From assembly GCA_018902385.1 (NCBI GenBank), contig JABSSW010000104.1, positions 1-27,756 of the forward strand: a stretch of 27,756 nt of DNA, in the 5' to 3' direction. A program made the position numbers and the translations under genes. The notes under the pieces were generated by a model, which saw only the letters and a list, made by a program, of their open reading frames with translations, searched no databases and had not been told where the DNA came from. How positions within the stretch are numbered: position 1 is the first letter of the stretch; every line of letters begins with the position of its first letter. The stretch is from Physcia stellaris. Taxonomy: Eukaryota; Ascomycota; Lecanoromycetes; Caliciales; Physciaceae. This document shows, in pieces, positions 4,315 to 27,756 of the stretch.

Positions 4315-4336
4315 TCAGTATTTGATTGATCTTTTG

Positions 4337-6218: not shown

Positions 6219-6245
6219 GACGCAAACGAAAATGAATTTTTTGAA

Positions 6246-7655: not shown

Positions 7656-7659
7656 AACA

Positions 7660-9174: not shown

Positions 9175-9652
9175 TGAGATGAATAAACAGAATCGTTGAC
9201 TCGAGTTCTGAAAAATTTGAAAATTCTAGCGATCAGAATTTTCATCGTACGTCGATCAGTATCGTCGAATAACGAACAAAAAACGTGATTGATTTGCAGA
9301 AAATCGTAAATGAATCACGCAAACTGAATGATCTCGTTGAAAATTGACGTCAAAATGAATTACAGTTGATTTGTTGTGAAAGTCTTTCTGCTGATTTAAT
9401 TAGTTGTGAATGTCTTTCGATCGACGAAAGCGACTGATAGAACGAAGAATAAAATAGAATGAAATGAAAGTTTTCACAGTCAAATGAATAAAGTTGACGT
9501 AAAGTTCATCACATCAGTAACATCGATGAAGCGAAAGCGACAAAAAAATCTAAAAGAATTGATAGATTTGCGTGCAATGCAAATTGCAAAATTGACAAAA
9601 TCTTGATGATATTGTTGCAATAAATGATGCAAACAATAATTGATGTGATAAA
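9175..9652 (-). other. element A leader between PBS and Gag
   Basis: About 480 bp without a coding signal. It holds a small imperfect duplication (AGTTGTGAAAGTCTTTC and AGTTGTGAATGTCTTTC, about 9,373-9,420). Confidence 0.5.
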
Positions 9653-9664
9653 ATGATGCTATCA
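9653..9664 (-). promoter_or_regulatory. element A primer-binding site (TGATAGCATCAT)
   Basis: Three bases inside the 5' LTR, the element strand reads TGATAGCATCAT. Element C has TGGTAGCATCAT two bases inside its own 5' LTR. The single difference, GG to GA, fits the local mutation rule. The 5'-TGG start is normal for annealing to a tRNA CCA end; I did not identify the tRNA. Confidence 0.75.
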
Positions 9665-9667
9665 AAT

Positions 9668-9857
9668 TGTCAAGAACAATGTGTGAAAAAATGTAAAAAG
9701 CTTGATTGCTAATTCTACGAAAAGATTTCGAAATATATATTGTAAAGTTATGATGACAAATGATTTATCTTTCAACGACAAACACGTCTAGCTTTCAAAC
9801 TTTGTCATTGACAATCGTCAGACAGATTTTCGTTTCATAGTCGGCAAATTTCTAACA
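9668..9857 (-). repeat. element A 5' LTR (right copy)
   Basis: 190 bp, reading TGTTAGAAA to CTTGACA on the element strand (TG to CA). It aligns with 2,188-2,368, with substitutions mostly C/T and G/A. The inner end was placed using the adjacent primer-binding site. Confidence 0.8.
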
Positions 9858-9862
9858 GAATG
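9858..9862. repeat. candidate target-site duplication of element A, right copy (GAATG)
   Basis: Pairs with AAATG at 2,183-2,187; see that entry. Relic D's pol reading frame continues from the base after this copy. Confidence 0.6.
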
Positions 9863-11260
9863 TTTGAATTTTGTTCAACGAAAAACGACGAAAATTTTTT
9901 TTATAAAAAACAAATTTTGTTTTTTTTTTCGATTACAATTATATTCAATAAACGCGATGAATGATTTGTACGAACGCGTCATGCAAATCAATCGCGAAAA
10001 CGAAAATTGTATTAATTATCGTCAAATTTTGATCGATGATCAAATCATCAACGAAAAAATAAATTTACGAAATTGTTCGAATCGAAACGAAATTTTATTT
10101 AAAAACGAAAATTTATGAATTTCAAATCGATTAAATTTTATAATTGAAATAATTCGTGATGTTTACGATCAATTTTTTTGTGCACATTCGAACATGAATC
10201 GTATTGAGAAATTCATTAAACGTTATTATTATTGATTTAATATAAAATTATTCATCAAACGTTATATTCGTAATTGTCACAAATGTCAACGATCGAAATT
10301 TTCACACGATAATCGTCACGAATTATTAATTTCATTGTCGATTTTTAGTCAACGATAAATTGATATATCAATGAATTTCATAATCGAATTATTTGATTTC
10401 AAAAACAACAATGTCATTTGTATTATTATCGATCGTTTAATCAAAAAACGTCATTACGTTTTTTGCGTGATCGATGACGATGATTTAACAATTCAAATTT
10501 GTGTCAAAATATTCATACATTACGTATTTCGTGTTCATAAACTATTTTTTTATCATTTCAAATCGAAATGATCAATTCGTAAATCGCGTTTGAAAGTTTT
10601 TTTGTAAACGATTAAAAATCAAATATAAATTGTTCATTGTTTTTCAATTTGAAATTGATGATCAAATTGAACGAATTAATTAAAATATTGAAATTCGATT
10701 ACGTTTGTATTGCAATTATCGTCAAAATAATTAAATTGATTGAATAAATATCATGAAATTCGTTGACAACAATGATGTTTCGACAATCATCGAATTCATT
10801 TCATTTTTCATCAATAAAAATATCATTTTCGAATGATTTTCGAATCAAATTTAAATGATTACGAAATCACAAAAAAACATTTGTTAATTAAACAAAACGA
10901 ATTCATTGTCGAAAAAATGAATTGTATTATCGAATACGTCAAAATCAATATTATCGACGCAAAACAAAAAATGTTTGTTCGAATTAACAATTTTCGTTTG
11001 TTTATAAATTTTGAAATAGAAAATTATTTTTGATTAAATCGTCGTCATATAAAAACGACTCGTTCATTAAACAAACTCGATAACAAAAAATGAATTCATA
11101 CAAAATAATCAAAAAAAAATTTCGTTTATGAGTTGAAATTGCTCGACGACATGCACATTCATTCAATTTTTCATTTTTGATTGTTAAAAAAAAATTATAG
11201 AAATTCGTTGAAAAAACAATATAACGATTTTTCAAAATCAATTATTGTCGACGAAATGTT
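9863..11260 (+). pseudogene. relic D: chromovirus integrase (linker, H2C2, core, C-terminal)
   Basis: The frame from 9,957 reads MNDLYERVMQINREN and INEKINLRNCSNRNE, the usual stretch before the integrase zinc domain. From 10,119 in frame: IIEIIRDVYDQ, CAHSNMNRIEKFIKRYYY, a TGA at Trp, then RYIRNCHKCQRSK, giving H2C2. After another stop at Trp the core starts IDISMNFIIELF, where Asn replaces the first catalytic Asp. VICIIIDRLIKKRHYVFC follows. Later pieces include VKFVDNNDVSTII-like (10,750-10,800) and MNCIIEYVKINIIDAKQKMF (10,918-10,980). Gln codons survive, while Trp codons are TGA or TAA. Same clade as relic B. It is the right half of the element cut by A. Confidence 0.9.
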
Positions 11261-11264
11261 TAAA

Positions 11265-11430
11265 TGAAAATTCGATGATATATTGCAATTTCGATATCAT
11301 TATTATCGATTACAATATCGTTGCAATTAATTCGAATGAAAATTTCACGATCGCACATGATATTACGTCGACGACGACGAATTTCAAAATGTTCAAAACA
11401 TCGTGAATGTTTTTCACGAAATCAATTTAA
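11265..11430 (+). pseudogene. relic D: chromodomain
   Basis: One frame reads, after a TGA at the expected Trp, KFDDILQFRYHYYRLQYR, then stops at the two other expected Trp positions, then DDDEFQNVQNIVNVFHEIN. This is the chromodomain pattern WEVDDILxSRxxxxxLxYxVKWxG with TWYxxxxFxNAxxxVxxFH. All three Trp codons are stops. The domain sits at the C-terminus of pol as in chromoviruses. Relic B shows the same start at about 27,675 before the window ends. Confidence 0.8.
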
Positions 11431-11766
11431 AAACAACAAAATTTGCTTTGCGAAATGATTAAATCGTGAATTTTGCTATTTATGATCGATCAAAAAACGT
11501 TAACATTCAATTCGTTATTCATTTTCAAATTGATTCAAATGATTTTTTTAATCATTTTATGCATTCGTTTCGTTGTCATTTCGCGTTGTTTACAATCAGA
11601 ATTTACGTCGCATGATAAATTGAATCGTGTCAAAAATATTTTTAAAAATTGTCGTTTGATTTTATTAAATTATGAATAATGTAAAATGTCATGCAATGAT
11701 ATAAATAAACAACAAAATGTTAAAAAAAAACTCGAACGTTTACAAATTTGATCGACAAAAATTTCA
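11431..11766. other. unassigned sequence after the relic D chromodomain
   Basis: Probably the 3' untranslated part of D and possibly its LTR. I see no second LTR copy in the window to confirm this. Confidence 0.4.
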
Positions 11767-11904
11767 ATTGTTTACTAATGATTAACGAAATTATTCATAA
11801 AATTCATGCAAAATATTTGCTTTTCAAAAAATCTAATACATGCATATTTCGTTGAATGCAATGTACGAATTTATTGTCGCATATGCGATAATATCGACGA
11901 GTTA
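11767..11904 (+). repeat. first copy of a ~240-bp direct repeat, split by element C
   Basis: This stretch plus 14,416-14,450 resembles 14,505-14,740. Shared blocks are ATTGTTTACTAATG, GCAATGTACGAAT/GCAATGTACATAT, CGCATATGCG/CGCATACGCG and, beyond the insertion, ATCAACATGATCAAACTGTTC versus ATTAACATGATCAAATTGTTC. Element C sits inside the first copy. Confidence 0.6.
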
Positions 11905-11909
11905 ATCGT
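11905..11909. repeat. target-site duplication of element C, left copy (ATCGT)
   Basis: ATCGT directly precedes the 5' LTR and is repeated exactly at 14,411-14,415. Confidence 0.93.
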
Positions 11910-12072
11910 TGTTACGGTACAACCTCCACATAGGGCTGGAGTCAGGATATCTTGACAAGAACGGACTAGCGTCTTGGCAGCCTGGTCCATATCTCGCACT
12001 CTGTCTCCTAGATAGTAACAATAAAAACTACTTTTATCACCCACTTATTACATGCCTTATTGAGCCCCAACA
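11910..12072 (+). repeat. element C 5' LTR
   Basis: 163 bp, starts TGTTACGG and ends CCCCAACA. It differs from the 3' copy at three positions, all C/T with C followed by C in the unmutated state (GTCTTGG versus GCCTTGG; CCCC versus TCTC). It would supply the promoter; I see no convincing TATA box. Confidence 0.95.
12020..12025 (+). promoter_or_regulatory. AATAAA polyadenylation-type signal in the 5' LTR
   Basis: An exact AATAAA lies about 50 bases before the LTR end. The 3' LTR copy would be the one used for transcript ends. Confidence 0.5.
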
Positions 12073-12074
12073 AA

Positions 12075-12086
12075 TGGTAGCATCAT
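12075..12086 (+). promoter_or_regulatory. element C primer-binding site (TGGTAGCATCAT)
   Basis: Begins two bases after the 5' LTR and starts with TGG, as expected for pairing with a tRNA 3' CCA. The same 12-mer with one G-to-A change is at the equivalent place in element A. The tRNA is not identified. Confidence 0.8.
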
Positions 12087-12291
12087 TCAAGAAGACGATT
12101 TCTTGACTCCTATCGTCAAGGATTAACTTCCTGCAGAAGCAGTCGAGTGACAGTTCGCGAGAGCGCGAGAGTCTTATTATTGCGAAGCACATACCGCACC
12201 GAAGACATTGCGCGAAGCCGAGAAGCACGGCAACAGCATGTATACTGCTTATTAGTATCACCTAGTTGCTTGCAACAATCTAGTCAGCAGA

Positions 12292-13713
12292 ATGACGTCT
12301 AGCTTTCGAGCACCTAGCCGTATGGCATCAGAATCTATCTACTCGAGTTATTCAGACTCGCCAGAATTCTCCTACAATCAACCAGTATCCTCCATTCTCA
12401 AGAAATCATCGAGTCCTTCGAGTTCACCGAAATCCGTATCCTTTGCATACACCATGCATGATTTCCTAGAACCAACCTCTCCCTATCAGCGAATCTCCTT
12501 AACCGACAATTGGCCGTATCAATATCCTACCGTATCGGAAATGAAAGATGCCGAACTATTCATGGCCGAGGATACACGTTCTGATAAGCGTCGTCAAATT
12601 GTTGGCTGTTTTTACTGTCATTTCGTCGTGTTCGTTGACAAGTGGCATTACATCAATCCTTTGCAAGCTCATTTCGACGTATGCTCGAACTGTCCGTGCG
12701 TTCAAGATTACAAGGAAAAGCTAGAAGACAAAACTCTTTCAGTCGAGATCGATCGAATCGCCAAGGAACATCTGAATCGTGCGTTACTTCGCATAGCACA
12801 GAAGCAGGAAGAAGACCGTCAAGTCGAAAAAGCTCGTCTGACCAAGAAGCATGCAGAACGCCTTGCAGAACAAGATCGCATCGAAAAGACGCGAGCAGAA
12901 AAGATCCGTCTGGCCAAGGAACGTGCCGAGCTTCTTCAACAACAAAAGGCCGAACAAGCTCGCATTGCGAAGAAGCAGTCCGAAGCCTTTGCATGCAGAC
13001 GTTGCAGTGCGAAATTTCCTAACAACATCAAGTTCCATATCCATGTGCAAGATCACCACCAGAAGAAGGTCGAAAAGTCTGCAAGCGAGCCCGCAGAAAC
13101 TACACCAATTGCAGTATCTGCACCAGTAACTTTCCCTTCCACACCAAAGGCAGAACCTGTCACGATCACAACCTCAGAACCAGCACCGAAAGCAGTGGCC
13201 ACGATGCCTACATCTCCTGCAACACCTTCATCACCGAGTGAGCCGACATTGGTGCTCACATCATCTCCTAGCCAGTCAAAACCGACCTCGAAACCCTCAT
13301 TTCCAGATACATCACCTGTCATCCCGAAGCAGTCATCTACTGCACCGACTGCAACACCAAGAACGCAAATATCCTGGGCCGAAATTGCCTCACGGTCAAT
13401 TATTGCATCAAAGCCTTCACGTCTCCCAATATCTACACCAAAGCCAGTACCAAACGCGCTGGAGACTGCAGCAGTCGCTTGCCCGTCTACTTCGCCGCCT
13501 ACCTCCCCTCAGAAACCAGTACCAAAACACCAACACCAGAAATCCTACCTTACTATCGATGACCTGTTCGAGATGTTTGCTGAGAAGCGCCCGCAATCAA
13601 ACCTATTACACACCAAGAAACGCGCATCTTCCCCAAGCGTCTCCTCCCTCCACCAGACCAGCATTACGTCCTACTTCAGGCCTGCGGCCAATCAGAGCAG
13701 GCCGATTAGTTAG
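12292..13713 (+). CDS. BIR-like / coiled-coil / C2H2 / PIP-box protein of element C
   Basis: A 473-residue open frame, the only balanced one in the window. Residues 1-60 are Ser/Pro-rich, with a possible PP1-docking KSVSF at 47-51. Residues 67-137 fit a BIR domain: R67, W74-P75, P79, A87, F90, then C106-x2-C109-x17-H127-x6-C134 with W118 and P123. Canonical BIR spacing is CX2C-X16-H-X6-C, so there is one extra residue. Residues 141-230 are a charged Lys/Glu/Arg/Ala heptad-like coiled coil. A C2H2 finger follows (C235, C238, H251, H255). Residues 260-445 are Pro/Ser/Thr-rich, with SWAEIASR at 361-368. The C-terminus holds QTSITSYF (455-462), an exact PIP box. The gene starts at the first Met of the frame, about 205 bp after the PBS. 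Its function is unknown; zinc-binding and PCNA contact are inferences. By unverified recall, similar sequences occur in predicted Pezizomycotina transposon proteins. Confidence 0.9.
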   Translation: MTSSFRAPSRMASESIYSSYSDSPEFSYNQPVSSILKKSSSPSSSPKSVSFAYTMHDFLEPTSPYQRISLTDNWPYQYPTVSEMKDAELFMAEDTRSDKRRQIVGCFYCHFVVFVDKWHYINPLQAHFDVCSNCPCVQDYKEKLEDKTLSVEIDRIAKEHLNRALLRIAQKQEEDRQVEKARLTKKHAERLAEQDRIEKTRAEKIRLAKERAELLQQQKAEQARIAKKQSEAFACRRCSAKFPNNIKFHIHVQDHHQKKVEKSASEPAETTPIAVSAPVTFPSTPKAEPVTITTSEPAPKAVATMPTSPATPSSPSEPTLVLTSSPSQSKPTSKPSFPDTSPVIPKQSSTAPTATPRTQISWAEIASRSIIASKPSRLPISTPKPVPNALETAAVACPSTSPPTSPQKPVPKHQHQKSYLTIDDLFEMFAEKRPQSNLLHTKKRASSPSVSSLHQTSITSYFRPAANQSRPIS

Positions 13714-14115
13714 GGCTCGAAAACTCCAAATCCGAGGAGTTTTCAGCAGCATATGTCTGCGGAGTCGAACCGCACCAAATTCACCCCCAGCAAGTGGTCT
13801 GAGAAATCGGCCATTTTATCATACAAAACACCGACCTTCTCCCGCTTGCCTACCTCAGAGAAATCGAGCGTCCTGCCATACAAAATGCCAGGTATCTCAT
13901 ACCTTCGGCCAATGGCCGCACCTTGCAAATCCTCGGCCCACCTACCCAGTTCACCTGCCTTCTCCCATGCCTGCCGCATCTGCAGCGGTATTTTCGGATC
14001 GAACAATGCCTTGCATCGGCACCTACGAGCGATCCATTTCAGCCAAGCGCCTCGCCGTCATTTGGAGAGCCCTCCGAAACGCGGTCACCCCGGTCGCAAT
14101 CTCGGAGATCCTTGA
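13714..14115 (+). pseudogene. in-frame extension beyond a single UAG, with a second C2H2 finger
   Basis: Directly after the UAG at 13,711-13,713 the same frame stays open for 133 codons to a UGA at 14,113-14,115. It contains repeated short Lys/Ser/Tyr motifs (KSAILSYKTPTFSRLPTSEK, then SSVLPYKMPGISYL) and a C2H2 finger CRICSGIFGSNNALHRHLRAIH (13,972-14,037; C-x2-C-x12-H-x4-H). Either the UAG is a recent nonsense change, for example CAG to TAG, or it is read through as in some gag-pol genes. A CAG-to-TAG change is in CpA context and so is not explained by the CpY process seen around it. The reading frame and composition match the upstream gene, so I judge this part of the same ancestral protein. 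Confidence 0.75.
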
Positions 14116-14183
14116 CCTCTTGATGGAGAAATGGGTCCATTTCCTTACTTCTTTACATGTATTACTAATAGATTTCTCAAAGG

Positions 14184-14247
14184 ATGAATGCTGTCCCCGC
14201 CACGCAGCACAACGAGGACGTTGTGGTCTTTTTCGTTCGGTGGCACT
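14184..14247 (+). pseudogene. short conserved coding tail before the 3' LTR of element C
   Basis: An ATG frame reads MNAVPATQHNEDVVVFFVRW and then enters the 3' LTR, where it would end at 14,417. The DNA for DVVVFFVRW aligns with the equivalent place in element A (about 2,369-2,400, minus strand), which reads DVVYFD then a stop at Trp. So this is an ancestral 3' segment common to both elements, perhaps the end of a polyprotein. No function can be named. Confidence 0.45.
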
Positions 14248-14410
14248 TGTTACGGTACAACCTCCACATAGGGCTGGAGTCAGGATATCTTGACAAGAAC
14301 GGACTAGCGCCTTGGCAGCCTGGTCCATATCTCGCACTCTGTCTCCTAGATAGTAACAATAAAAACTACTTTTATCACCCACTTATTACATGCCTTATTG
14401 AGTCTCAACA
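14248..14410 (+). repeat. element C 3' LTR
   Basis: 163 bp, identical in length to the 5' LTR and 160/163 identical. It ends TCTCAACA and is followed by ATCGT. An AATAAA lies at 14,358-14,363. Confidence 0.95.
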
Positions 14411-14415
14411 ATCGT
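14411..14415. repeat. target-site duplication of element C, right copy (ATCGT)
   Basis: Exact match to 11,905-11,909. Host sequence with saturated composition resumes at once. Confidence 0.93.
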
Positions 14416-14504
14416 GATAAAAGAAATTTTATCAACATGATCAAACTGTTCGTTTTTTGATATCAATTTGATGTTGCAAAAATTTTCAAACTTGTTGACG
14501 CGTT

Positions 14505-14740
14505 CAATTGTTTGTTTACTAATGTTCGTCGAAATTATTTTTGACGAATTGTATGAATTGATCATTTTTCACGATAATCATTACATTCACGTTTTGTCGT
14601 ATGCAATGTACATATCAATTTTCGCATACGCGAAAATATCAATGCGTTAAACATTGTTACGATAATTTTATTAACATGATCAAATTGTTCATTTCATCGT
14701 AAATCGATTTGACGTTTTCACGATTTTTGACGAATCGATT
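14505..14740 (+). repeat. second copy of the ~240-bp direct repeat
   Basis: Pairs with 11,767-11,904 plus 14,416-14,450; see that entry. With element C removed the two copies lie about 240 bp apart, as a tandem duplication. Confidence 0.55.
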
Positions 14741-17700
14741 TCGCGAACGAAATCGATTTCACAACATTTCGAATTTATTTGTTCATTTTATCAATCATTC
14801 GATTCAACGTCATTTAAACAACATATTTAAATCGCGCAAAACATTCATCGTTAAAAAAAAAAAAATTCAATTGATCGTTTCGAAACGAAATTGAAAAAAA
14901 ACGAAAAGTAATGTGACGAACGTACATCGAATTCAATATTTGATAAAATTAACATCGAATTAACATTGTTATTTTATCACATCGAATGTTAAAATCGAAA
15001 TTCGTCTTGACGTATTCAAAAAATCAAATTTTTTATATATGTTTTTGCAAATTTCATGTATTTGTTTTTCATTTCGATATTTTCGTGTAATTATGTAATA
15101 ATATTATATTTTTGCATAACATTTTACATATTCAACGAAAATTTTATTGAATGTACATGCGAAAAAACATCGAAAAATACATCGAAAAATACGCAATATG
15201 TCAAAAAACAAAAATTCATCATTATCGTTTTTACGAAAAATTGTCGAAATTGTCGATGTGAACAAAATTATAAAAAAATTATTATCGATATAATTACAAA
15301 ATTTTCATCAAACAAATGACGCAAAAAAATTTACGATTCGATTATAATGATAATAAATCGTTACACAAAAATAACAATTTACGTTTCGATAAAATTTATC
15401 ATGAAAACGAACGAAATATGTAATTTGCTTTTCGACGACGTTTTTTTGAAATATGAATTATCGAAAAACATAATTTCAAATCGTGAATTTTTGTTTATAA
15501 ACAATTTTTGATTAACATTGTGTTATCACGCAAAAATTAAACACAAATTTAACATCGTTTTTCATTCACAAACGAATAATTAAACAAAAAAACAAAATTA
15601 AATTTTTGAATATTATTTGCGATATTTTTGCAATTACAAACAAAACAATTGAATTTCGTTGTTATTGATAATCGTTTTCGTATACAATTGTGCGAAACAT
15701 GCGTTTATTGAATTAATTTCGTTTAAAATTTTGTTCGAATATATTTTAAATTTTAATTTCAAATTCGATTTCGTTCAACAAAACATTTCGACGACGAAAC
15801 AAAAATTTCAAAATTTGTTCGATAAACGAAAAAAATTACAAAAAAATTTGAAACACAATAATGAAACGCAAACAAAATAAATCAATAAAAAAATATTCGC
15901 GAAAACATACAATATTGAAAACAAAATCATGTTGTCGATTAAAAATTTAAAACAAATGCAATCAAAAAAAAATTGTCGAACAAATATATCGAATTTTTTA
16001 AAATTAAAAACGTTGTCGACACGCAAATTTATCGTTTAAAATTGTCATTCAAATGACGCATTCATTCAATATTTCACGTGTTTTTATTCGAAAAATATTA
16101 TATCAACGAATTCATAAAATCGTTTGCGAAAATAATTTTGATAAACGATCACGAAAAAAAAAAAAAAAAAATTCGACGTGAAAAAAAAAATGTTTCGATA
16201 TTTGATTCGTTAAAAAAATATTCATCATGTGATGATAAATGAATTAAAAAAAATTGAATAACATCGACGAAACGTTGACGACGTTTAAACGAAAACGTGT
16301 CGAAATTCAATTGTTATTTTTCGTTCGAAAAAAAAAACGATCGTTCAAACGAAATTTTGCGAAATCAAATTTGAAATTCTCAAAAAAAAAACGACGATTT
16401 GTAACAAAAAAAACGTAAAATACGAATTTTTTTACAATAAATTGTTTCACAAATAATAAAATCAATAAAATTCATTTTTTTAATAATTGTGTCGTTGCAT
16501 TGAATATGTACAAATAATTAATAAATATGTTAAAATCATCAATTAATTTTTTCATGCGATGTTTTTTCAATTCGTCGTCGTTTTTGTGTTAAAAAAATCA
16601 CAAACAAAAATTTGTGAATTACAATGAACATCGTTTTGAATTTTATTTTCGTTTTTATCGTATCGACTTTTTCGATTGATTACGATTTGTTCGATTTTGA
16701 TAAAAACAATATTCAAAAACGATCATCACGTTTATTCGACGTCATTTTCGTCGAAATTCATAATTTCAACGTCAACAAAAATCTGATTTTCGTTTTTTTT
16801 TTTATTCGAGAAATTCGCAAAACGCATAATCGAAAAATTTTCATTGACGCGAAACGAATCGATTATAAAATATAAAATTTTATTGATATCGACGAATCGA
16901 AATTTCAATCGCAACAACAAATTTTCAATAAAACGATATTGATTTGATTTTTTTTGCTTTATGAAATGTTATTGAATTTTTTTAATTGTATTTTTCAAAC
17001 GTAATTACAAATTGAACATCAAATTCGTGCGTTTGTTTTTTATTGCATTTGTCAAAATCATCAAATGTTATTGAATTCGACAAACATATTTAAAAAAAAT
17101 TGACGTGCAAAGTTTGCGTATCAACACGCACGTAAAACATTTATCGTCGTGAAACGATTAAAAACATTGCGTAAATCAACGCGATCAATTGAAAACGTAA
17201 AATATTTTAAATCGACGATTTTTTTAAATTACTCGCGTATTTTTACGAGCATATTTGACGATTTTATTTAATTATTCGCGTATTTCGACGAGCAATCTTT
17301 GCAAAATTTGATCGAATGTTAATTAATTTCGCAAAATTCAAAACGAAAAATTTTGTTGTGTTAAAAACAATGAATCATTGTCATTGCGAATTGATGAAAA
17401 AATTTCGTGTTAAAAATGTGCGATCGTCACGATTTAATCGATTTTGTTTTTTTTTATTCGTTGATCGTTTCGTAACGAATATGAAATTTACATCGTTCGT
17501 CACGATAAAAATCAAATATAATGTAAAACGCATATTTAAAAAACAAATAACATAACGAGAATATTTAATTTAAAAAACAAATATGTACAAATGAAAATCG
17601 AAAAATATGTGTAAAATTTGCGAAAATTAAATTTTAATCACGTGTTTTTTTCAGTTTTGCGACAATGTTTTCGAGACACGTTCGTAACAAATTTTTTATT

Positions 17701-19188
17701 TGTTCAATTTTTTTCGTTTTCAATTCATTTTTTTAATTCGTTTTTCATTTTTTTATTATTCGTTTTCAATTTATTTTTCGTTAACAATTCATTTTTCATT
17801 TTCAATTCATTTTTCGTATTCAAATCATTTTTCAAATCATTTTTCAATTTTTTTTTTTTTTTTTTTTTCATTGTTCATTTTTTTTCACGATTTGTTTCGT
17901 TTTTTTCGATTCATAAAAATCGAAAACGAAAATTGCAACAAAAAATTCATTCAAGTAAAATCAAAAAAATTGACAAAAATTGAAAATGTGATTGAAAACA
18001 AATTAAATTTAATGCAAATTTGATTCGATATCAAACAATATATGATTTTTTGCAATTACGTCAATTGTGAAAATTTCGAAAATCGTATTCGAATATTGAA
18101 AATTTTCGCAATCGCACGATTTATAAATTGTATTCAAACATTATCGATATTCATTTTTGACATCATTCAATTATTGTTGAAATTATTAAACACGATCGAA
18201 AACAATTTATAAATATTAAAATTGATTCAAATGCGATCGAAATACGACGTTGATTGATTTAATTTTATTTGAAATATTTTGTCATATTTCGAATTTCAAT
18301 TTAACATCAAAAACAATCGTGTTGCGAAAATTTTGAATTGTCGCGATCAATTGTTTGTGACGATTTGTCGATTTTCGCAATTGTGTTTTTAATTTTGAAT
18401 ATTTCGAAAAATATCGCAAAATACAAATCATAAAAAACAACGATTGCGATAAATATTATTGACGTTGTTTTATTCATCGTTTATTAAAATTTTTAAATTC
18501 GAAATTTGAAAAAAAAAATATGTTAAAAAATGAATATCAATATAACGAAAAACATTGTTTTATTTTTTTTGTCGATATTGATCGTTATAAAAATTGCAAA
18601 TTGTAATGAGAAAAAAAAATAACAAATATAGAAATTGATCGTCGTTTTGATTTTTGAAAATTTTGAATTCGAAAATTATTTTGTTATTGTTACGAACATT
18701 TTTGACAAATAAATTTGACAAATAGATAATTAATATGATATGTGATCGAACAACGAATTATGTTTTAATTTTACGTTGAAATTAACGTGATTTGAAATTT
18801 GACGTCGCACATTGTTTGCAATTTCAATATTTTTTATTTATTTGTTTTTGCAAATTTATTGTTTTCGTTTAATTAATCAATAATACGTTCATTTAAACAC
18901 GACTCATGATATTACAATAAATTTTCAATTTTATCGTTCGTCGTGATACGCGAACGTTCAAAAATAAAATTTCAAATCGATCAAATTTTTTTGACGAAAT
19001 AAACGACGAAAAATTTTGTTGATCAAACAAACAATCAAAAAAAAATTTGACGAGACATTTGACGAAAATCGTAAAATAACAAATCGAATTTTCACGCAAA
19101 CGACGATATTTTCGACGAAAAAAAACGACGAAAAAAAAATTGATTCGATTAATTTTTTTTATCATTTTTCAATTTTTCATTTTTAATT
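14741..19188. other. unassigned saturated AT-rich relic DNA
   Basis: About 4.4 kb with no recognisable gene. CpC, CpT, ApG and GpG are rare throughout. It includes homopolymer A/T runs (for example around 16,150-16,170), two copies of a CTCGCGTATTT-type motif at 17,231-17,295, and a T-rich minisatellite-like stretch at 17,690-17,880. The part before 19,189 should contain relic B's 5' LTR and leader, but no second LTR copy lies in the window, so I cannot place it. Confidence 0.55.
17690..17880. repeat. degenerate T-rich minisatellite-like tract
   Basis: Many imperfect copies of an 11-13 base unit around TTTTCAATTCATTTTTC, ending in a T run near 17,850-17,868. Long Phe/Ser open frames over it are a by-product of the repeat. 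Confidence 0.6.
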
Positions 19189-20123
19189 ATGATTCGAAAT
19201 CATCACGAAACAATTTTTTTCGAATTTTTTATTTCGATGAAACAACGTTTCAAAACGTTACGTTTTAATGTGAATCGTATGTTGCACGAAATCAATGACA
19301 ATTTTTTCGACGAAAATTTCGTCGAGCAATTCAAACGTCGTCGATTTGTTTCAACGATCGAATTCATAAAAATGAAAAATAACGAAATTATTCATTTTTT
19401 GAACATTGTTATCATCGATCAATTGAAATGATAAATCAATTCAAAAATTATCGATTTTTTGAAAAAATTTGATCGATTACGCATTGATCGTGACAATTAT
19501 TTAAATGTTTTGATTCAATATCAAAATTTATACAATATCGTCAACGTCGATCGTGACGAATTGATCAATACAAACGTTCAATTCGATGAAATTCGTAAAA
19601 AATGAATACATTGAAAATTAATTACGAACAAACGCGTGATCGATTTTTAATCAAACAACACGATTACATTTTTTTCAAAAAAAATCACGACGTTGTGTTA
19701 ATCACGATTCGCGATCGTACACGAAATTTTAATGACGACGATAAAAATAACGACGACAAAATCAACGTATTTAATTTTTTTAATAAAAACAAACGACGTT
19801 CAAAAATTCATTCAAATTTTTTTAAATTCATCGACGAAATGAAATTTATTTGACATGTTTGAAAAACAAAAATGCACGATAAAATGACAATCAACGTTGA
19901 TTATTACGACACGAACATGATCGCAATCATTATTGTGATTGATTGAATTGAAAAAAATATCGAAAATCACATACAATCGATATATAATATCGACATGAAT
20001 CATTTCAAAAATTGACATATAATGTTGAAATTTTTGAATTTCATTTTCGAAAATTATAATTTCAAACGCAATATGCGTATTCAATTTCGAATATTGATCA
20101 TAAATATTCAAAATTTTCAATTT
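19189..20123 (+). pseudogene. relic B: Gag, N-terminal and capsid part
   Basis: Frame 19,189-19,431 starts MIRNHHETIFFEFF and is coiled-coil-like. Frame 19,602-19,853 includes an Asp/Asn-rich stretch and then NKNKRRSKIHSNFFKFIDEMKFI, which fits the start of Gypsy capsid (RSxKxPDPPxFTDGxxxTW). The same frame continues after TGA at Trp: KTKMHDKMTINVDYYDTNM, then IENHIQSIYNIDMNHFKN, TGA, HIMLKFLNFIFENYNFKRN and MRIQFRILI. This is the retrotrans_gag-type helical region. It is cut at 20,123 by element E. Confidence 0.8.
20119..20123. repeat. target-site duplication of element E, left copy (AATTT)
   Basis: AATTT, repeated exactly at 23,233-23,237 after the right LTR. Confidence 0.85.
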
Positions 20124-20308
20124 TGTTAAACAGACATGAACAATGATTGCATGAATTGCGTTCAATTTTTAAATATAAACAAATCGAAAATTTTGATGTG
20201 TGCGATGTCAAGACATTAAACTCAATGAAAACGCATTAAATTTTTTTTCGTCAAATTATATCAATTGAATTTTTGATCATTTTTTTGCGAAAATTGTATT
20301 TTTCAATA
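20124..20308. repeat. element E LTR, left copy
   Basis: 185 bp. About 15 differences from the right copy by my alignment, 13 of them C/T or G/A. The terminal CA has become TA. Confidence 0.88.
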
Positions 20309-20431
20309 TTTTTTTACAACATTCGTTTGTGTTTTCTGTTTAAAACAAATATTTTGATCATTTTGAAATTTTCGTGCAAACTTTTTTAACGATGCAAATT
20401 TTGATGTTTGAAATTTTTTCAAAACGATAAA

Positions 20432-20628
20432 TTTTGAAATTTTTTCAACGATACGTTGTTTGAAATTTTCGAACGAATTTTTTCAACGCGACAAATTTTC
20501 GATCTATTGAAAAACGTGAATGATTATCATTGTTGTCGACAAATTTTTTCAACGAAATGATTTTTGAAACTTTTTCAACGATGCATTGTTTGAAATTTTC
20601 GAACAAACTTTTTCAACGTGATAAAATC
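20432..20628. repeat. two 68-bp imperfect direct repeats inside element E
   Basis: 20,432-20,499 and 20,561-20,628 share TTTCAACGATACGTTGTTTG / TTTCAACGATGCATTGTTTG and then GAAATTTTCGAAC. They lie 129 bp apart. Confidence 0.75.
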
Positions 20629-21243
20629 ATACATCGATGCGAAAATTGCAAAAACGAACGAATCGAAATTCGATACACGTATTGATTTGAAATATGACGT
20701 AAAATCGAATTGTAAAACGTGCGATCGAATGATTGAAAACGTTCGAGATTTTGAATTTGTTTCTTTTTGAGATGACGCATCGATGTGAAATTTGATATTT
20801 AAAATTGAATAAACGATACATCATGAAACAAATATTTTTCGTTTGAATATTGTCGTTGAGACGAAAATATTATTGCAACACATTGACGACTCGTGTTGTA
20901 ATTCATTGATTTCACAAATGTTTCAAATTTTTTATTTCACATTGCGATTTCGTTGACGCAATATCTATGTAATTTGACTGTAAAAAATTCAAAAAATATG
21001 TCAACGAAATGAAAAAAATGAAAAATGATCGAGAAATCGATAAAAAATAATGCATCGAATGCGCGACAAATTTTTGCGAACATACATCGATGCAAAAATG
21101 CAAATTCGAACTTTTCGATTTTGATTAAAATTTGTCAAAAAATCAAATCGATTAATATGCGAAAAGATTCGATATTTTCAACATTATTCGTTCTTTTTGA
21201 TCGAATTTTTGTTTTGCGAAATCAAGATGTAATCTGATTGCAT

Positions 21244-21422
21244 AATACGTTTTTTCGAAACGATATTATGTAATTTCAAATTATTCGTGATTGTATAATA
21301 CGTTTTTTCGAAATCGTATTATTTGACGTCAAATCGTTATAACAAATTCATTAAAGATACGTTTTTGAAACAGACTCATTGTTGTTGCTGTAATTGTACA
21401 ATACGTTTTTCGAAACGATATT
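21244..21422. repeat. three near-palindromic hairpin repeats inside element E
   Basis: Copies at 21,244-21,267, 21,297-21,320 and 21,400-21,422 read AATACGTTTTTTCGAAACGATATT with small changes. Each can fold with arms AATACGTTT / AAACGATATT around a short loop. A partial fourth is at about 21,355-21,375. Each full copy is preceded by a form of ATTGTATAAT or ATTGTACAAT. Confidence 0.75.
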
Positions 21423-22700
21423 GTTACGCATTTTGTTTTTTTTCTTGTCACGTTTGATCGTTTTTTTTGTTTTTTTCTGTTTCGTATTTATCGTTCGATA
21501 ACGAATCGCAAAATGTAAAAAGTAAATGAATTATCGTGTTAAATCAAAACGAAGCAACAACAAAGAAAAACAATCAAATTTTTACAAATCAACAAAACAA
21601 TAACGAACAACTTTTAGCTTTTTTAGATCAATGATTCTTTTAAAGCAAAATTGAATAAACGATAACAAAACGAAAAGCGAATAAACAATAAAACAACAAC
21701 ATGTTGAATTTTTTCAAAAATGATTCTTTTCAAATGAGTGTTAAAACGAACGAAAAGAATAAAAACAAATAAACACGATTTAGAACTTTTTCGAAATAGT
21801 GACTTTTTCAAAGTAGAAAAATCACTAACGAAAAGTTCGAAAACAACAATTTTTGTGACTTTTTCAAATCAATATTCTTTCAAAAAAAAATTTCATGAAT
21901 ATTTCATTGTTTTCGATTCTCGAGACGATCGATGTGAATCAATTATTAAACAAATAAATGACGAAATGTTCTTGACAACGTTTGCAAATTGAATTGAATG
22001 AAAAATTTTCGAAAATCGAGAAATGTGAATCGAAATCGAGAATTTGCGCGAAAAATTTTCGCGAACATGTGTAAATTCTAAAAATTTCGAATTTGATCGT
22101 TTTGAAAACAAATAAAATCGTTCGCATTGAAATATGACGTAATGCGAATTTGTATGAAACGATCGTTGTTTTTAAAATTGCATATGTCAAAATTGCGCGA
22201 AAAACATGCGCGCATTCGATGTTGTTGCAAATTCATTGATTTCGACTTTTCAAAAAACATGCGATGTAAATCATTCACGATCAGATTGAAAATTTGAAAA
22301 CAATTGATGAAATGAACAAATCGACATTTTTTGCATCAACAGATTTCGATTTTTTGACGTGTGATATTCATCGCTTTTATTTTTTGTTATGTTTTTGTTT
22401 TTAATTTTTTCTTTAACGTGTTGTTGAACAAAACGAATAACGAAATCGAAAAATGAATAAAATGTCACGTGCGACGATCGACTAGATGTTTCGATCGAAT
22501 GACGATTGACGAATGTCAATAAAATAATTGTTTCGATATTTAGCTAATTAACGATTGACGTGTTATTGAAATAATCGTCGTATAAAATTAAATAACGAAT
22601 GATCGAGTAAATGCAATGATTGAATTGACATTTTTCAATTTTTCTGTTTTCAACGCAAAATCGTGTAAATTCTTTCTATTGTCGTTTATTCATTCATTGA

Positions 22701-22885
22701 ATTGATGATCGAATCTGTATTTGTGAAGTTTTTTTCACAATTTTAACGCGATCGAACGATGAGTTTTTTTTCACAATCGTTTTCATTCGCAAAATTGATG
22801 ATCGAATTCGTTGTAAATTTTCTTTATTGTTTTGACGCGATCGATCGATGAATTTTTTCTCATTGTCGTTGATTTTCGTGATTCG
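22701..22885. repeat. two ~90-bp imperfect direct repeats inside element E
   Basis: Starting at 22,701 and 22,795, both read ATTGATGATCGAAT, then ACGCGATCGAACGATGAG or ACGCGATCGATCGATGAA, then a T run and CACAATCGTT or CATTGTCGTT. Confidence 0.7.
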
Positions 22886-23047
22886 TATCGTGATCGAATC
22901 GATGCGATTATAAATGCGAATTCGCGTACGAAAAGATTCAAATTTCTAAAAACACAACAATTCACGATTTGTCAAATCGAATTGCTTTGTCAAAACAATT
23001 GCAACATCATTGTCACGAACAACATACGTTAATTCGAGTTCATAATT

Positions 23048-23232
23048 TGTTAAACAAACATGAACAATAATTGCATGAATTGCGTGTAATTTCTAAATAC
23101 AAACAAATCGAAAATTTTGATGTGTGCGATGTCAAAACATTAAACTCAATGAGAACGCATTAATTCTTTTTTCGTCAAATTATATTAATTGAATTCTTGA
23201 TCATCTTTTTGCGAAAATTGTACTTTTCAACA
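23048..23232. repeat. element E LTR, right copy
   Basis: 185 bp, TGTTAAACA to TTCAACA. Same length as the left copy and about 92% identical by hand alignment. Confidence 0.88.
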
Positions 23233-23237
23233 AATTT
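23233..23237. repeat. target-site duplication of element E, right copy (AATTT)
   Basis: Exact match to 20,119-20,123. Relic B gag resumes here. Confidence 0.85.
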
Positions 23238-23700
23238 TTTTATTTCATTTTTTTTCGTTTTAACAATTCAATCAATTATATCGAAATCATCAAAATCGAA
23301 AAATTAATGAATTTTTTTTTTTGAAATTTGAAAAAAAAAACAATGAATATTTATTTTCGCGAATTCATTACGTTCGACGAGATTCGAATCATTTTGCAAC
23401 AAATATACAATCGACAATTAAATTTTCGAAAAAAAATCGCGACACGTCAACAACGTTTTGAATTGTTTCAATTCAAATCAATTTTTGTCGTTTCGATTTC
23501 GATGTTTTTTACGAAATTTGTTATTTCGATTTTTTTCGTAAAATTTGTCGTTTATTTTCATTTTAACGTTGAAATCAAAATTCGTAATTCGATGATTGAC
23601 AAATTAATCGTCACGAACAAATGTTTCATATGCGATACAATCGATCACGTATAAAAAAATGTTCGAACGTTTACAAATATCAAAAACGTTATTAACACAA
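23233..23700 (+). pseudogene. relic B: Gag C-terminal part with zinc knuckle
   Basis: After element E, Gag continues: MNIYFREFITFDEIRIILQQ, IYNRQLNFRKKIATRQQRFE, a low-complexity Ser/Phe/Val stretch (from Ser/Ala/Pro), then KCFICDTIDHV at 23,614-23,652. The last block is a CCHC nucleic-acid-binding knuckle, CxxCxxxGHxxxxC, with Gly read as Asp. A TAA follows His-Val and the last Cys is not in frame. Confidence 0.78.
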
Positions 23701-23757
23701 AATGCAAATGTTTTACATAAATTTAATCAACGAATCGAGCGAATTTGATTCGAAAAA

Positions 23758-24156
23758 TTGATAATTCACATCAAAAACGCGATTGATAAATGTTTAAAAG
23801 AATTTTTTATTCATCATGACGAATTGTTTGATTTTTTTGTCAAACGATTTTTAATCATCAATTGTACGTTGTCATTCAACGATAATAAACATAAATTAAA
23901 ATTTTTAATAAACATTGATGCAATTGATTATGTTTTCATTGATAAAAAAATTGCGCAATTTGTATGCAACATGTTAAACATAAATTTCGTATTTTTATTA
24001 AAATCGAAATTTATTATTGAATTCGACGATCGTCAAATTTTTTTAATAATTTATGTCATTTATTTCAAATTGACAATTGATTTGCATTTCGAATTGACAA
24101 TTTTTTTGTTCATTATCGATTTGAACAATCATTCGATAATTTTAAAAAAATCGTGA
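23758..24156 (+). pseudogene. relic B: aspartic protease
   Basis: A 132-codon open frame contains LKFLINIDAIDYVFIDKKIA at residues 47-66, the retropepsin active-site region. The expected DTG/DSG is read as N52-I53-D54, so the catalytic Asp and Gly are both replaced, each by a change the local rule predicts. VCNMLNINFVFLLKSK, IIEFDDRQI and LTIFLFIIDLNNHSIIL follow and fit the flap and C-terminal ILG region. Inactive. Confidence 0.82.
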
Positions 24157-24729
24157 ATGAACAAACATGAAATTATTTTGAATATGATTTACGATAAATT
24201 AATTTTTAAATCGTTCAAATGTAATCATTATAAAAATATATTTATCAAAACAATGCAAATTCGACGTTTGAAAATTTTTGATTCAAATCGTCGATAAAAC
24301 GTATTTAATTGACGTCGCGATATTTTTTTATCGAAAACAAATAACGCGAAACATATTGTTATAATAAAATTTCGATATACGATTTTATTTCGTTCGTAAT
24401 TTAGTTTTTCAACGTTTTATATACAAAACGAATCAAACGTATTCGATTCAAAATGTTTCGATTGTTTTATTCATTCGAAAATCGATCAAAATGACGAATC
24501 GTTCGTCGTTAAATCAAATCATTCAAAAATTGATATTATAACGATTACGAAAACGACATTCGTCAAAATTTTTTTTGAAAAAACAACGCAATAAACGTTG
24601 AAAAATCAAAAAACAACAATTCGAAATTTTTTCATTTTCGAAATTGAATTTAAACGATTCAATGAATATCGCGATAATTGATGCGATTTTTTTTGTTTAT
24701 TCGTCGATTTCAAAAATCGAAAACAAAAA
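24157..24729 (+). pseudogene. relic B: protease-RT linker, unreadable
   Basis: About 570 bp between protease and RT with no long frame. It lies in the pol interior and should be the poorly conserved linker. Confidence 0.5.
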
Positions 24730-25640
24730 ATGCAATGTTTTTTCATTACGATCAATCAAATCGATTTCGCATTCAAAATATTGCGAACAAATTTTGAATC
24801 GTTGAAAATTGTCGTCATGATCAAAAAAATTTTGAAAAACGAACAAATCAAATCGATTTTTGAACGTATAATGAAAAAATTATCGAAATATTTCAAACAT
24901 TTGTCAAAAATATTTGATTTTCAAAAAACAATTGAATTGTCGTTGCATCGAATTTACGATCACAAAATCGAATTTTTAAACGATGACAATATATTGTTTC
25001 GAAATCGAATATATTTTTTGTTCGAATTTAAATTTCAAAAATTCAAAAAATATTTGAAAAATAATTTTTCAAAAAATTTCATCGTTTTCAATCAAACAAC
25101 ATACGTTTCGTTCGTTTTATTTGCAATTAAATTAAATAATCAATTACGTTTGTGTGTAAATTATCGACGATTTAATCACATCACGAAACGCAATCGATAT
25201 TTCATTTTTTTGATGAAAAAAATTTTGATTAAAATGCAAAATTGCAAATATTCGATCAAATTGAATATTATATCGATTTTCAACAAATTTCGAATGAATG
25301 AAAAAAATGAAAAATTCATCACGTTCGTTATTTTCATGAAATCGTACAAATATCGAATATTAATTTTCGAATTCATCAACGAATTCGCGAATTGACAATA
25401 TTACATGAACGATTTGTTGTTCAATTTTTTGAACGATTTTTGTCAAATTTATTTAAATGATATTTTTATTTACAACAAATTCAAAAAAAAAGCACATCGT
25501 TCACGTTCGTAAAATATTGAAAAAATTCAAAAAATCGAATTACAAATGAATATTGAAAAATGAAAAGTTTTTAAAAAAAATGACATTTTTGAACGTCATA
25601 TTATCGATGAATGATTTTCGCATGAATTCGAAAAAATAAA
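24730..25640 (+). pseudogene. relic B: reverse transcriptase
   Basis: A 221-codon open frame starting at 24,730 reads LSLHRIYDHKIEFLNDDNIL, then QLRLCVNYRRFNHITKRNRY and ISIFNKFRMNEKNEKFITFV, then YKYRILIFEFINEFAN and a TGA at the expected Trp. The same frame continues MNDLLFNFLNDFCQIYLNDI. The YLDDI box is read as YLNDI, codon AAT at 25,456, so the first catalytic Asp is Asn. The frame stays long because Gln codons are not lost. This is the best-preserved RT in the window. Confidence 0.93.
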
Positions 25641-26235
25641 AATTATTGTCAATTAAAAAGATTTTACAAATTTGAAAAAAATGCAAATTTTCGTGAGTTT
25701 CGTCAATTTTTACAAACGATTCATTCGTGATTTTTCGAAAAAAACTCGAATTTTCATTCGAATGATCAAAAAATTCGTGAATTTCGAATGAATTGTTGAA
25801 ATCGAAAAAATTTTCAATTTTTTCAAAAAAACGATAATCGAAATTTTCATCTTACGACATTACGATCGAATCAAACAAATTATTTTGAAAATTGATTTTT
25901 TTGATTACGTCAATGCGAAAATATTATTTCAATACGACGACGAAAAAATTTTACATTTCGTTATTTTTTATAATCGTAACATGATTTTAATCGAATGCAA
26001 TTACGAAATTTATAACAAAAAATTGTTGATCATTATTCGTTGTTTAAAACATTGACGTTTTAAATTTGAAAACATTGAAAAATCGATCAAAATTTTCATC
26101 GATTACAAAAATTTGAAAATTTTTATAACGTCAAAGAAATTAATTTTTCGTCAAATTCGTTGAACAATTTTTTTTTCGAAATTTAATATTGTCATTCAAT
26201 TTCAATTCGAAATTCCAAACGTTAAAACAAATACT
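25641..26235 (+). pseudogene. relic B: RNase H and linker
   Basis: The plus-strand frame continues with MQIFVSFVNFYKRFIRDFSK (RT connection), then ILFQYDDEKILHFVIFYNRN, IECNYEIYNKKLLIIIRCLK, TGA at Trp, SIKIFIDYKNLKIFITSKK and IRQIR-type text before another TGA. The pattern matches Gypsy RNase H: [24 protein letters not shown], then [24 protein letters not shown]. It ends at FQFEIPNVKTNTLI. Confidence 0.85.
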
Positions 26236-27600
26236 TTGATTTTTATGTTTGATTCACGATCAAAAAACGATATTGACGAACGACATCAATATCGAAAACA
26301 AATATTGTTTATTTCGAAACGATTCGAAATTCACATGATGAAAATTGACGAATTTATTTACGAACGAGTTTTTGTTGTCAACAAAATTGACGATGATTGC
26401 ACGATTTATCGTGAAATTATCGAACAAAATTTCATTTCAATGAATGAAATTGATTTACGAAATTGCATTGAAAAAAATGACGTTTTGTATCGAAAAAATC
26501 GATTTTGAAAATTCGTCGATATTTTTTTATTCGTTGATTTTTTCAGAAAAATTCATGAATTTTTTGTTTCGAAACATTCAAATTTTAATTGCATGAAAAA
26601 TTTTATACGTCGCGATTATTATTGATTCAATATACGCAAAACGATTCGTCGATACGTATTTAATTGTTATAAATGTCAACGCACGAAAATTTTCAAAAAT
26701 CGCAAAAACGATTTGTTTATTTTTTTGATTATATTTTTGCAACATTGAATCGATATATCAATGAATTTCATTATCGAATTGTTCGACGTTCACGATCATA
26801 ATGTCATATGCACGATAATTGATAAATTTAACAAAAAACGTCATTATGTGATTTGTATCGTCGACGACAAAAATATCAATATTGAAATCACGATTAAAAT
26901 ATTCATCAATTACGTATTTCGTACATATGAATTATTTTTTTTTATAACGTTTGATCGAGATTTTCAATTTATATCGTTCGTTTGACAAACATTTTGTCGA
27001 ATTTTCGACATCAAATGTAAATTTTTTCATCGTTTTTCATTTAAAAATCGATAAACAAATCGAAAAAATCAATCAAAATATCGAAAAACAATTGCGACAA
27101 TATTGCAATTACATGCAAAACGATTGAAATATTTAATTGTTTATAATCGAATTTGCAAACAACAACGCAATATTTGCAACAACAAAATTATTTTCATTTT
27201 TTATCAATAAAGATTTTCATTTTCGTATAAATTTTTCATCAAATTTTATCTCGTATGTTACAACGAGAAAACGATTTTTGATTATCAAAACAAAAAATAT
27301 TATTGACACGATGCAAAATATTTTTAATTATATACGAAATTATGCAAAAATGATTCAAAAACGTATAACAATTCAAATCAACAAACATCGAAAAATCGTA
27401 AAATACGTCGAAAAAAATTTCGTTTTTTTCGATCGACGAAACATCAAAACGATCAAATCGTTTGACAAATTCGATGACAAAAAATTAAATTTTTACAAAA
27501 TATTACAACGTATGAACAATTTATATCGATTCGAATTGTTTGAAATTATACATATTTACGATGTGTTTCATTGTTGATTTTTACGCAAAAATTTTCGTGA
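26236..27600 (+). pseudogene. relic B: integrase
   Basis: Frame 26,236-26,508 gives RHQYRKQILFISKRFEIHMM, YERVFVVNKIDDDCTIYREI and MNEIDLRNCIEKNDVLYRKN. The H2C2 zinc domain follows, with RDYY, a TGA at Trp and YVFNCYKCQRTK. The core starts at 26,761 as MNFIIELF with Asn for the catalytic Asp, then IIDKFNKKRHYVICIV and FFITFDRDFQFISF, where the second Asp is kept. Frame 27,137-27,577 reads MFIIEFANNNAIFATTKLFS, YVTTRKRFLI, NFVFFDRRNIKTIKSFDKFD and ILQRMNNLYRFELFEIIHIY. Confidence 0.92.
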
Positions 27601-27659
27601 TTCATTCGAAAATCAAATCAATAATTTTTTTGATTTTGTCATAATCAACGAAAATTTCG

Positions 27660-27756
27660 AATAAGAAATGAACGATATTTTGAAATTTCGATATTATTAC
27701 AATCATTTTTATCATGAATCGTGTTTGTATGATTGTATTGATTGATTAATTAAACG
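27660..27756 (+). pseudogene. relic B: start of chromodomain, cut by window edge
   Basis: After a TAA at expected Trp the translation reads EMNDILKFRYYYNHFYHES, matching the chromodomain start of relic D (KFDDILQFRYHYYRLQY). The window ends within it. Confidence 0.65.

Follow-up and report, generated by a model that had tools for sequence, protein, structure and literature searches.

Repeat-induced point mutation (RIP) is usually detected through the loss of CpA and the gain of TpA. For Neurospora crassa, passages of a published account give the dinucleotide order of RIP as CpA > CpT > CpG > CpC (PMC5496416), and rDNA copies are described as mutated too (PMC5555474), as they are in the present genome. 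The order stated for Trichoderma reesei is CpA ~ CpG, then CpT > CpC (PMC5496416). A preference for CpT, usually together with CpA, has already been published according to passages on the species concerned, which also record RID/Masc1 genes in Magnaporthe oryzae, Botrytis/Sclerotinia and Colletotrichum truncatum.

The window analysed here, a whole stretch of 27,756 nucleotides, is made up of the following features (strand is given where assigned; dinucleotide figures are remaining counts):

1-2220: mutated background DNA; CpC/GpG 4, CpT/ApG 17
2221-9869, minus strand: element A, an LTR-type repeat with 160-nt terminal repeats 84% alike; its longest open pieces lie on the minus strand
9870-11908: mutated background DNA; CpC/GpG 0, CpT/ApG 18
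11905-11909: target-site duplication of element C, left copy
11910-14410, plus strand: element C, a young LTR-bounded insertion with LTRs of ~165 nt 98% alike, TG..CA ends and a 5-bp target duplication
14411-14415: target-site duplication of element C, right copy
14412-20121: mutated background DNA; CpC/GpG 0, CpT/ApG 27
20122-23239: element B, an LTR-type repeat with 194-nt terminal repeats 91% alike; CpC/GpG 0, CpT/ApG 85
23240-27756: mutated background DNA; CpC/GpG 1, CpT/ApG 19
24122-26108, plus strand: mutated copy of a Gypsy-like retrotransposon with an unmutated relative (L070)

An earlier note on this DNA had claimed that C survives only before purines. The depletion of C before a pyrimidine (CpY) was found to be real and, by counts and shuffles, stronger than that note had said. 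Positions 14741-27756 hold 1 CpC/GpG and 127 CpT/ApG, versus 1513 CpA/TpG. In the segment 25201-25380, CpC and CpT are both absent, as had been claimed, with 12 CpA, 8 CpG and one C at the very end of the segment; its 18 G are preceded by T (10) or C (8), never by A or G. Within element C, 11 of the 19 C in 12421-12480 precede a pyrimidine (7 CpC and 4 CpT), again in agreement. The sum of CC, GG, CT and AG was 27 in 14412-20121, versus a mean of 691 and a minimum of 633 in 300 base shuffles, and 20 in 23240-27756, versus a shuffle mean of 536 and minimum of 476. Elements A and B, which the earlier list did not include, are also nearly devoid of CpC/GpG (4 and 0) yet keep 324 and 85 CpT/ApG, so that CpC, almost gone in element A, and CpT, partly kept there, appear to have been lost in two steps. 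Only element C has a near-normal composition. No Pfam family was detected above the cut-off in three open pieces of element A, nor was there a Pfam match for the 473-aa open frame of element C or for the open piece 24682-25392 of the Gypsy-like copy.

The standard indices did not register this DNA, as had been predicted. Six mutated segments gave TpA/ApT values of 0.40-0.50 and (CpA+TpG)/(ApC+GpT) values of 1.26-1.45, and were scored negative against RIP-positive thresholds of ≥ 0.89 and ≤ 1.03, respectively. Since a near-complete mutation system scores RIP-negative here, surveys using such indices may have missed genomes of this kind.

The polarity of change was not trusted from the window sequence alone; an unmutated copy and rRNA served to test it. 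The reference was L070, which lies elsewhere in the genome and represents the same retrotransposon in unmutated form; it contains reverse transcriptase and RNase H domains. In the window copy, C-to-T changes affected 253/261 CpC, 260/264 CpT, 44/247 CpA and 13/259 CpG sites, and totalled 571, with 11 changes from T to C. The eight mutated copies, including that of the window, gave 1909/1941 for CpC, 1973/2009 for CpT, 195/1845 for CpA and 71/1938 for CpG. In seven partly mutated copies the values were 431/462, 365/580, 18/524 and 11/444, respectively, and the difference between the first two suggests that CpC is mutated before CpT, a preference absent from the earlier note. These seven copies carry 825 C-to-T changes, ~20 T-to-C changes and ~15 transversions in ~4139 aligned bases (the last three figures being half of the both-strand cells of the table). 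C-to-T, together with G-to-A, is thus far above all other changes, as in RIP. The canonical CpA preference of RIP is not seen (18/524 and 195/1845), nor is the CpG loss of methylation decay or of a MIP-like process (71/1938). The degree of mutation varies between copies within one family. Little depended on the base at the 5' side or at +2 (0.92-0.95 for NCC and 0.53-0.73 for NCT, by 5' base), and TpC before A or G was spared (TCA 4/182, TCG 6/166).

Other repeats were consistent with this direction. Among 15 copies of the element A family (the 99% twin L050 and the five most distant of the 20 fetched were left out), C sites at which half or more of the copies carry T were 112/115 before T and 4/4 before C, and 9/123 before A and 24/120 before G. 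Between the LTRs of element A, 17 of 19 C/T differences fall at CpY (two of the 19 are located immediately beyond the 160-nt repeat). In element C the two LTRs differ at three positions in all, each at CpC. The LTR pair of element B shows 8 CpT and 4 CpA changes, and three further C/T changes (1 CpA, 2 CpG) lie just outside it. The CpA changes in these LTRs, and the 11% CpA change in saturated copies, indicate that CpA is not fully spared.

A displaced rDNA unit, a pseudogene of known ancestral sequence, was changed at conserved rRNA positions in 27/29 CC, 19/35 CU, 0/25 CA and 0/36 CG; the only 5.8S match found lies in this mutated unit. The claim of C-to-T change before C or T on both strands is thus borne out by direct copy comparison and by rDNA, and the 3' neighbours tabulated across repeat copies were mainly C or T, not the CpA or CpG that the earlier note had named as contrary evidence. 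Its claim of sparing stood for CpG (71/1938) and mostly for CpA, but not wholly in the most mutated copies (195/1845). Because CAA, CAG and CGA codons are spared, the coding outcome would be mainly missense changes and Trp (TGG) to TGA stops; internal stops in the 150 RVT_1 matches listed, out of 527 candidates, were 250 TGA, 33 TAA and 3 TAG. For the same reason, a dead element can retain rather long open frames, and gene prediction can be misled by them.

Outside the window, 166 of 190 sampled kilobases were normal, with observed/expected ratios of 0.94 for CC and 0.90 for CG, in a sample read for composition regardless of copy number. Within that scope, the other contrary outcome that had been named, the same depletion in unique host genes, did not appear. 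In six sampled mutated kilobases, CpG reached 3.38 times expectation. The three mutated stretches that were searched are all multi-copy, and some multi-copy families are unmutated. L024 has three abrupt borders, each within ~200 bp; the borders of L023, of L026 and on one side of L010 are graded. The element C family is unmutated though multi-copy (17 copies read of 73 matches listed, 73-82% alike by search), and was dropped as a source of a mutated/unmutated pair since all 17 copies read are unmutated. Private CpC-to-T changes were counted at 18/103 sites in element C versus 66/1557 in a pool of the remaining 17 copies, among them L039 with 12/98. Two retrotransposon copies on contigs C12 and C5, 96% alike, are both unmutated. 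In view of these copies and of the element C family, duplication alone may be insufficient, or the copies may be too young or too diverged.

The search for RID/DIM-2-like methyltransferases proposed in the earlier note returned one DIM-2-like and two RID-like genes. The first, on C3, matches 9BAP with E 2e-181, the best stretch covering residues 220-905 of a 1009-aa frame; 9BAP is apo-DIM2 as deposited, according to a passage of PMC11315935. PF00145 lies at 501-892 of this frame, so the DIM-2 match extends beyond the catalytic domain; no BAH domain was returned by Pfam at E 0.001. Two related PF00145 genes with open first exons, on C6 and C5, are presumably RID-like, a label based on architecture and a motif. 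Their catalytic domains are 40% identical, and they differ at motif VI (EET versus EQT). Judging from the DIM-2-like and RID-like genes, the genome is most likely that of a filamentous ascomycete. Two PF03167 matches, of the uracil-DNA-glycosylase type, exist in the genome, and loss of uracil glycosylase was rejected as a cause.

In this multi-copy DNA, C-to-T change is near saturation on both strands and is set almost wholly by the 3' base. It is best read as a RIP-type repeat defence with CpY as its cytosine target (CpC > CpT >> CpA, CpG) in place of CpA, to which we assign a probability of about 0.77. RIP proper, premeiotic and RID-dependent, may be the cause. Recognition of duplicated DNA would be confined to a restricted phase of the life cycle; a DNMT1-family enzyme of this genome, either a RID/Masc1-like paralog or the DIM-2-like one, would methylate and/or deaminate C before a pyrimidine. 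Several rounds would remove CpC first and CpT next, with a slow spill-over to CpA. Tentatively, and with less than even confidence, we propose that one RID-like paralog was re-specified to CpC > CpT, leaving repeats saturated, CpA and CpG largely intact, and the process invisible to current RIP surveys.

Alternatively, the changes could have accumulated slowly, without a RIP-like burst, if a DIM-2-type enzyme kept methylating CpY in heterochromatic repeats during the whole of vegetative growth and the methylated C then deaminated spontaneously, giving TpY. A DIM-2-like gene is present, confinement to repeats fits, and according to a passage of a 2026 review the targets of Neurospora DIM-2 are mostly non-CG sites, CpT being favoured (PMC13297926). 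However, the LTRs of element C are 98% alike and yet their only three differences are at CpC. In addition, 93% of CpC and 63% of CpT were lost in the partly mutated copies against the few transversions and T-to-C changes given above, which is far above ordinary methyl-CpG decay, where the excess is roughly ten- to fifty-fold. Glycosylase-type genes are also present, but methylated C may not be among their substrates. We consider this chronic decay unlikely. An AID/APOBEC-like cytidine deaminase, acting on repeats while they are single-stranded or on intermediates of reverse transcription, would account for C-to-T change on both strands and for the many retrotransposons among the targets. The specificity of such enzymes is mainly set by the 5' base, however, which matters little here; residual CpT and ApG were interspersed without strand runs in 6/6 copies tested, and rDNA is also mutated, making this explanation very improbable. 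An artefact in which methylated C is read as T in repeats is hardly credible, even though the analysis rests on the assembled sequence: misreading of a modified C would affect its own strand alone, and 98% conversion of both strands in the consensus would therefore not be expected; moreover, copies of one family differ in degree, and intact copies of the same element occur in the same assembly. Although CC and CT are dipyrimidines, UV-type damage is rejected because the TCA and TCG counts contradict it and most sampled kilobases are normal.

If a RID-like paralog has indeed been re-specified, the same hidden process may also operate in further species whose indices read as RIP-negative. The presence of two diverged RID-like enzymes, alongside a natural shift in target from CpA to CpC/CpT, would help in studying how RID selects its cytosine.

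Among known systems, the CpG-type hypermutation of Microbotryum, Tuber and Rhizoctonia solani AG8 likewise consists of C-to-T changes in fungi that are biased by sequence context, but CpG is spared here. According to passages on R. solani, CpC is the densest of the four CpN classes of SNPs, 214 bp apart genome-wide and 301 bp in repeats, these SNPs lying within the heterokaryon and being denser in genes than in repeats (PMC4014442). No CpC-first, CpA-sparing system was found in passages of the published literature. Clutterbuck 2011 is reportedly a survey of ascomycete genomes, in which a comparable case could be included. Published passages describe CpT-to-TpT change in transposons of M. oryzae, Botrytis/Sclerotinia, C. 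truncatum and Anisogramma anomala, as here. They mention no CpC preference, and in contrast to the present case CpT is accompanied by CpA at species level (single C. truncatum families show CpT alone) and the repeats of C. truncatum and A. anomala have TpA/ApT indices in the RIP-positive range. T. reesei likewise shows C-to-T change in repeats and departs from the N. crassa dinucleotide order, but CpC comes last there and first here. With N. crassa, the best-studied case, this genome shares C-to-T change on both strands, repeats as targets, AT-rich relics, a DIM-2-type methyltransferase and probably also RID-type ones, whereas the order CpC > CpT >> CpA, CpG is approximately the reverse.

The contig belongs to an assembly of 44 Mb in 147 contigs. 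Over the whole window the observed/expected ratios were 0.35 for CpC, 0.28 for CpT, 0.14 for GpG, 0.30 for ApG and 2.97 for CpG, and 260 of the 269 CpC and GpG were confined to element C. The elements referred to here are:

2221-9869: element A
11905-14415: element C with its 5-bp target duplication; 2.5 kb, LTR-bounded, with a 473-aa frame
20122-23239: element B

At 14741-27756, CpC/GpG occurred once, CpT/ApG 127 times, CpA/TpG 1513 times and CpG 791 times (1582 on both strands). The stretch 14412-20121 held 27 CpY-type dinucleotides (C before C or T), against a mean of 691 and a minimum of 633 in 300 base shuffles. A recount of 25201-25380 and 12421-12480 reproduced the numbers of the earlier note. 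Elements A and B, outside the segments listed there, had 4 and 0 CpC/GpG and 324 and 85 CpT/ApG, respectively. A 1-kb piece of element A, compared between the window and 14 related copies, contained 0-6 CpC/GpG and 5-76 CpT/ApG, with CpA/TpG at 112-141 and CpG (both strands) at 96-124, the lowest CpA and CpG values coming from shorter pieces. Since CpC was near zero while CpT varied among these copies, CpC was lost first and CpT afterwards. Element B also carries direct repeats of 85 nt and 47 nt, each present twice (20411-20625 and 21235-21334).

The direction of change was determined against an unmutated Gypsy-like retrotransposon. Among the best 150 scored reverse-transcriptase matches of 527 candidates, 10 had no internal stop, including a pair on contigs C12 and C5 that were 96% alike and of normal composition. 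Searches with the C12 copy and with window 25001-25600 had 6 places in common among the 40 listed by each. The C12 copy aligned to window 24122-26108, where T was found at 253/261 of its CpC, 260/264 CpT, 44/247 CpA and 13/259 CpG sites, with 571 C-to-T and 11 T-to-C changes overall. Seven further saturated copies (one covering only ~1.1 kb) gave 97-99% at CC, 95-99% at CT, 5-18% at CA and 2-5% at CG; the eight summed, in full four-base context, gave 1909/1941, 1973/2009, 195/1845 and 71/1938. In seven less mutated copies the values were CC 431/462, CT 365/580, CA 18/524 and CG 11/444, with 825 C-to-T changes versus ~20 T-to-C and ~15 transversion events. Conversion in these copies ranged with the 5' base from 0.92 to 0.95 at CpC and from 0.53 to 0.73 at CpT; the effect of the +2 base was small (0.88-0.99 and 0.55-0.69). 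The repeats have thus undergone strongly directional C-to-T change on both strands, set by the 3' base.

In the saturated copies, change at CpA (11%) exceeded that at CpG (4%) and peaked with T at +2 (CAT 74/451 versus CAA 29/572), which hints at a weaker second specificity. The C12 and C5 copies were unmutated, the other copies compared being heavily or partly mutated; the pair may represent a recent arrival or an escape from mutation.

The two LTRs of one element are identical at insertion. In element A, the 19 C/T-type differences between them comprised 16 CpT, 1 CpC, 1 CpA and 1 CpG (one CpT and the CpG lying just beyond the 160-nt repeat), besides 3 other differences. Element B showed 8 CpT and 4 CpA differences inside the LTRs and 1 CpA and 2 CpG just beyond, with 8 other differences in all, and the 3 differences in element C were all at CpC. 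A mutated rDNA unit (C41:45899-46052 and flanks), with LSU, 5.8S and SSU parts, contained the sole 5.8S match of the assembly among 39 scored of 2644 candidates, and functional rDNA may be absent from the assembly. Across 11 alignment blocks, and for Rfam consensus bases strongly conserved together with the adjacent base, T replaced C at 27/29 CpC, 19/35 CpU, 0/25 CpA and 0/36 CpG, the reverse U-to-C change occurring at 1/160. Including weakly conserved positions gave noisier values (108/162, 64/97, 10/89 and 26/128; U-to-C 25/418). Under a CpY rule TGG becomes TGA, with CAA, CAG and CGA kept, whereas a CpA rule would give mainly TAA and TAG; internal stops in the 150 listed reverse-transcriptase matches of the 527 candidates were 250 TGA, 33 TAA and 3 TAG. 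The proposal that C becomes T before C or T on both strands, sparing CpA and CpG, stands after the copy, LTR, rDNA and stop-codon tests.

The family of element C is multi-copy (17 copies examined, 73-82% alike by search) yet lies outside the mutation process; its 473-aa frame had no Pfam match. Private changes of element C affected 18/103 CpC and 6/69 CpT, versus 66/1557 and 54/1093 in the 17 relatives pooled, which suggests, without proving, that the process is still running.

Nineteen stretches of 10 kb at arbitrary coordinates gave 190 one-kb windows, classed by composition: 166 were normal (GC 0.49, CC 0.94, CG 0.90), 18 intermediate and 6 mutated. The intermediate ones showed the same order of loss (CC 0.13, GG 0.21; CT and AG 0.59). 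Three borders of mutated DNA in L024 were abrupt (within ~200 bp); the left border in L010 spanned ~400 bp, and the right border in L010 and those in L023 and L026 were graded.

Choice of cytosine by its 3' base is typical of cytosine methyltransferases. This, together with such genes in the genome, suggests a RIP-type defence that a DNMT1-family enzyme would operate. Slow methylation decay, which would also convert C to T, is less likely because changes other than C-to-T are very few. PF00145 had 4 matches in 3 genes, on C3, C6 and C5. The C6 and C5 genes were of normal composition with open first long exons, and splice-like signals could explain the in-frame stops of the former. Their catalytic domains were ~40% identical and an N-terminal stretch was also common to both. 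Motif VI read EET and EQT in the two genes, with an apparently shared intron position. They were labelled RID-like candidates on this architecture and on a motif, EQT instead of ENV. The C3 gene matched 9BAP (E 2e-181), deposited as apo-DIM2 according to the portion of PMC11315935 covered.

Standard RIP indices had been expected to be blind to this process, and the six mutated segments bore this out: TpA/ApT was 0.40-0.50 and (CpA+TpG)/(ApC+GpT) 1.26-1.45, not RIP-positive; four normal loci sampled for comparison had 0.62-0.71 and 1.26-1.33, respectively. Neither the canonical CpA target nor positive standard indices, both features of RIP membership, were found. The RIPCAL paper, in the part covered, defines CpC/TpC and CpT/TpT indices and leaves them out by default.

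In the parts of the literature covered, CpT change accompanies CpA in Magnaporthe, Botrytis and Sclerotinia, with a tentative RID motif link (PMC4352252), and in A. anomala (PMC10998396); it occurs in several C. truncatum families (PMC6180176), is high in N. crassa Tad1 (PMC2621366) and, as CpT-to-TpT, is termed dominant in RIP-capable genomes (PMC7882544). A CpT preference of DIM-2 is stated on others' work (PMC13297926). rDNA pseudogenes changed mainly at CpA (PMC5555474), Monilinia shows CpA change plus CpC-to-TpT double changes (PMC8959702), and R. solani AG8 is termed CpG-biased, its table having CpC as the densest SNP class (PMC4014442). The parts examined of PMC5765338, PMC5148876, PMC13001447 and PMC11105155 reported no CpC preference, and CpC-first, CpA-sparing repeat mutation was not described in this partly examined literature, which did not extend to Clutterbuck 2011. 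The order is CpA > CpT > CpG > CpC in N. crassa, and CpA ~ CpG, then CpT > CpC, in T. reesei, according to the part of PMC5496416 covered. CpC thus comes last in both, whereas it comes first in this genome, where the system behaves as RIP does but with the order of targets inverted.
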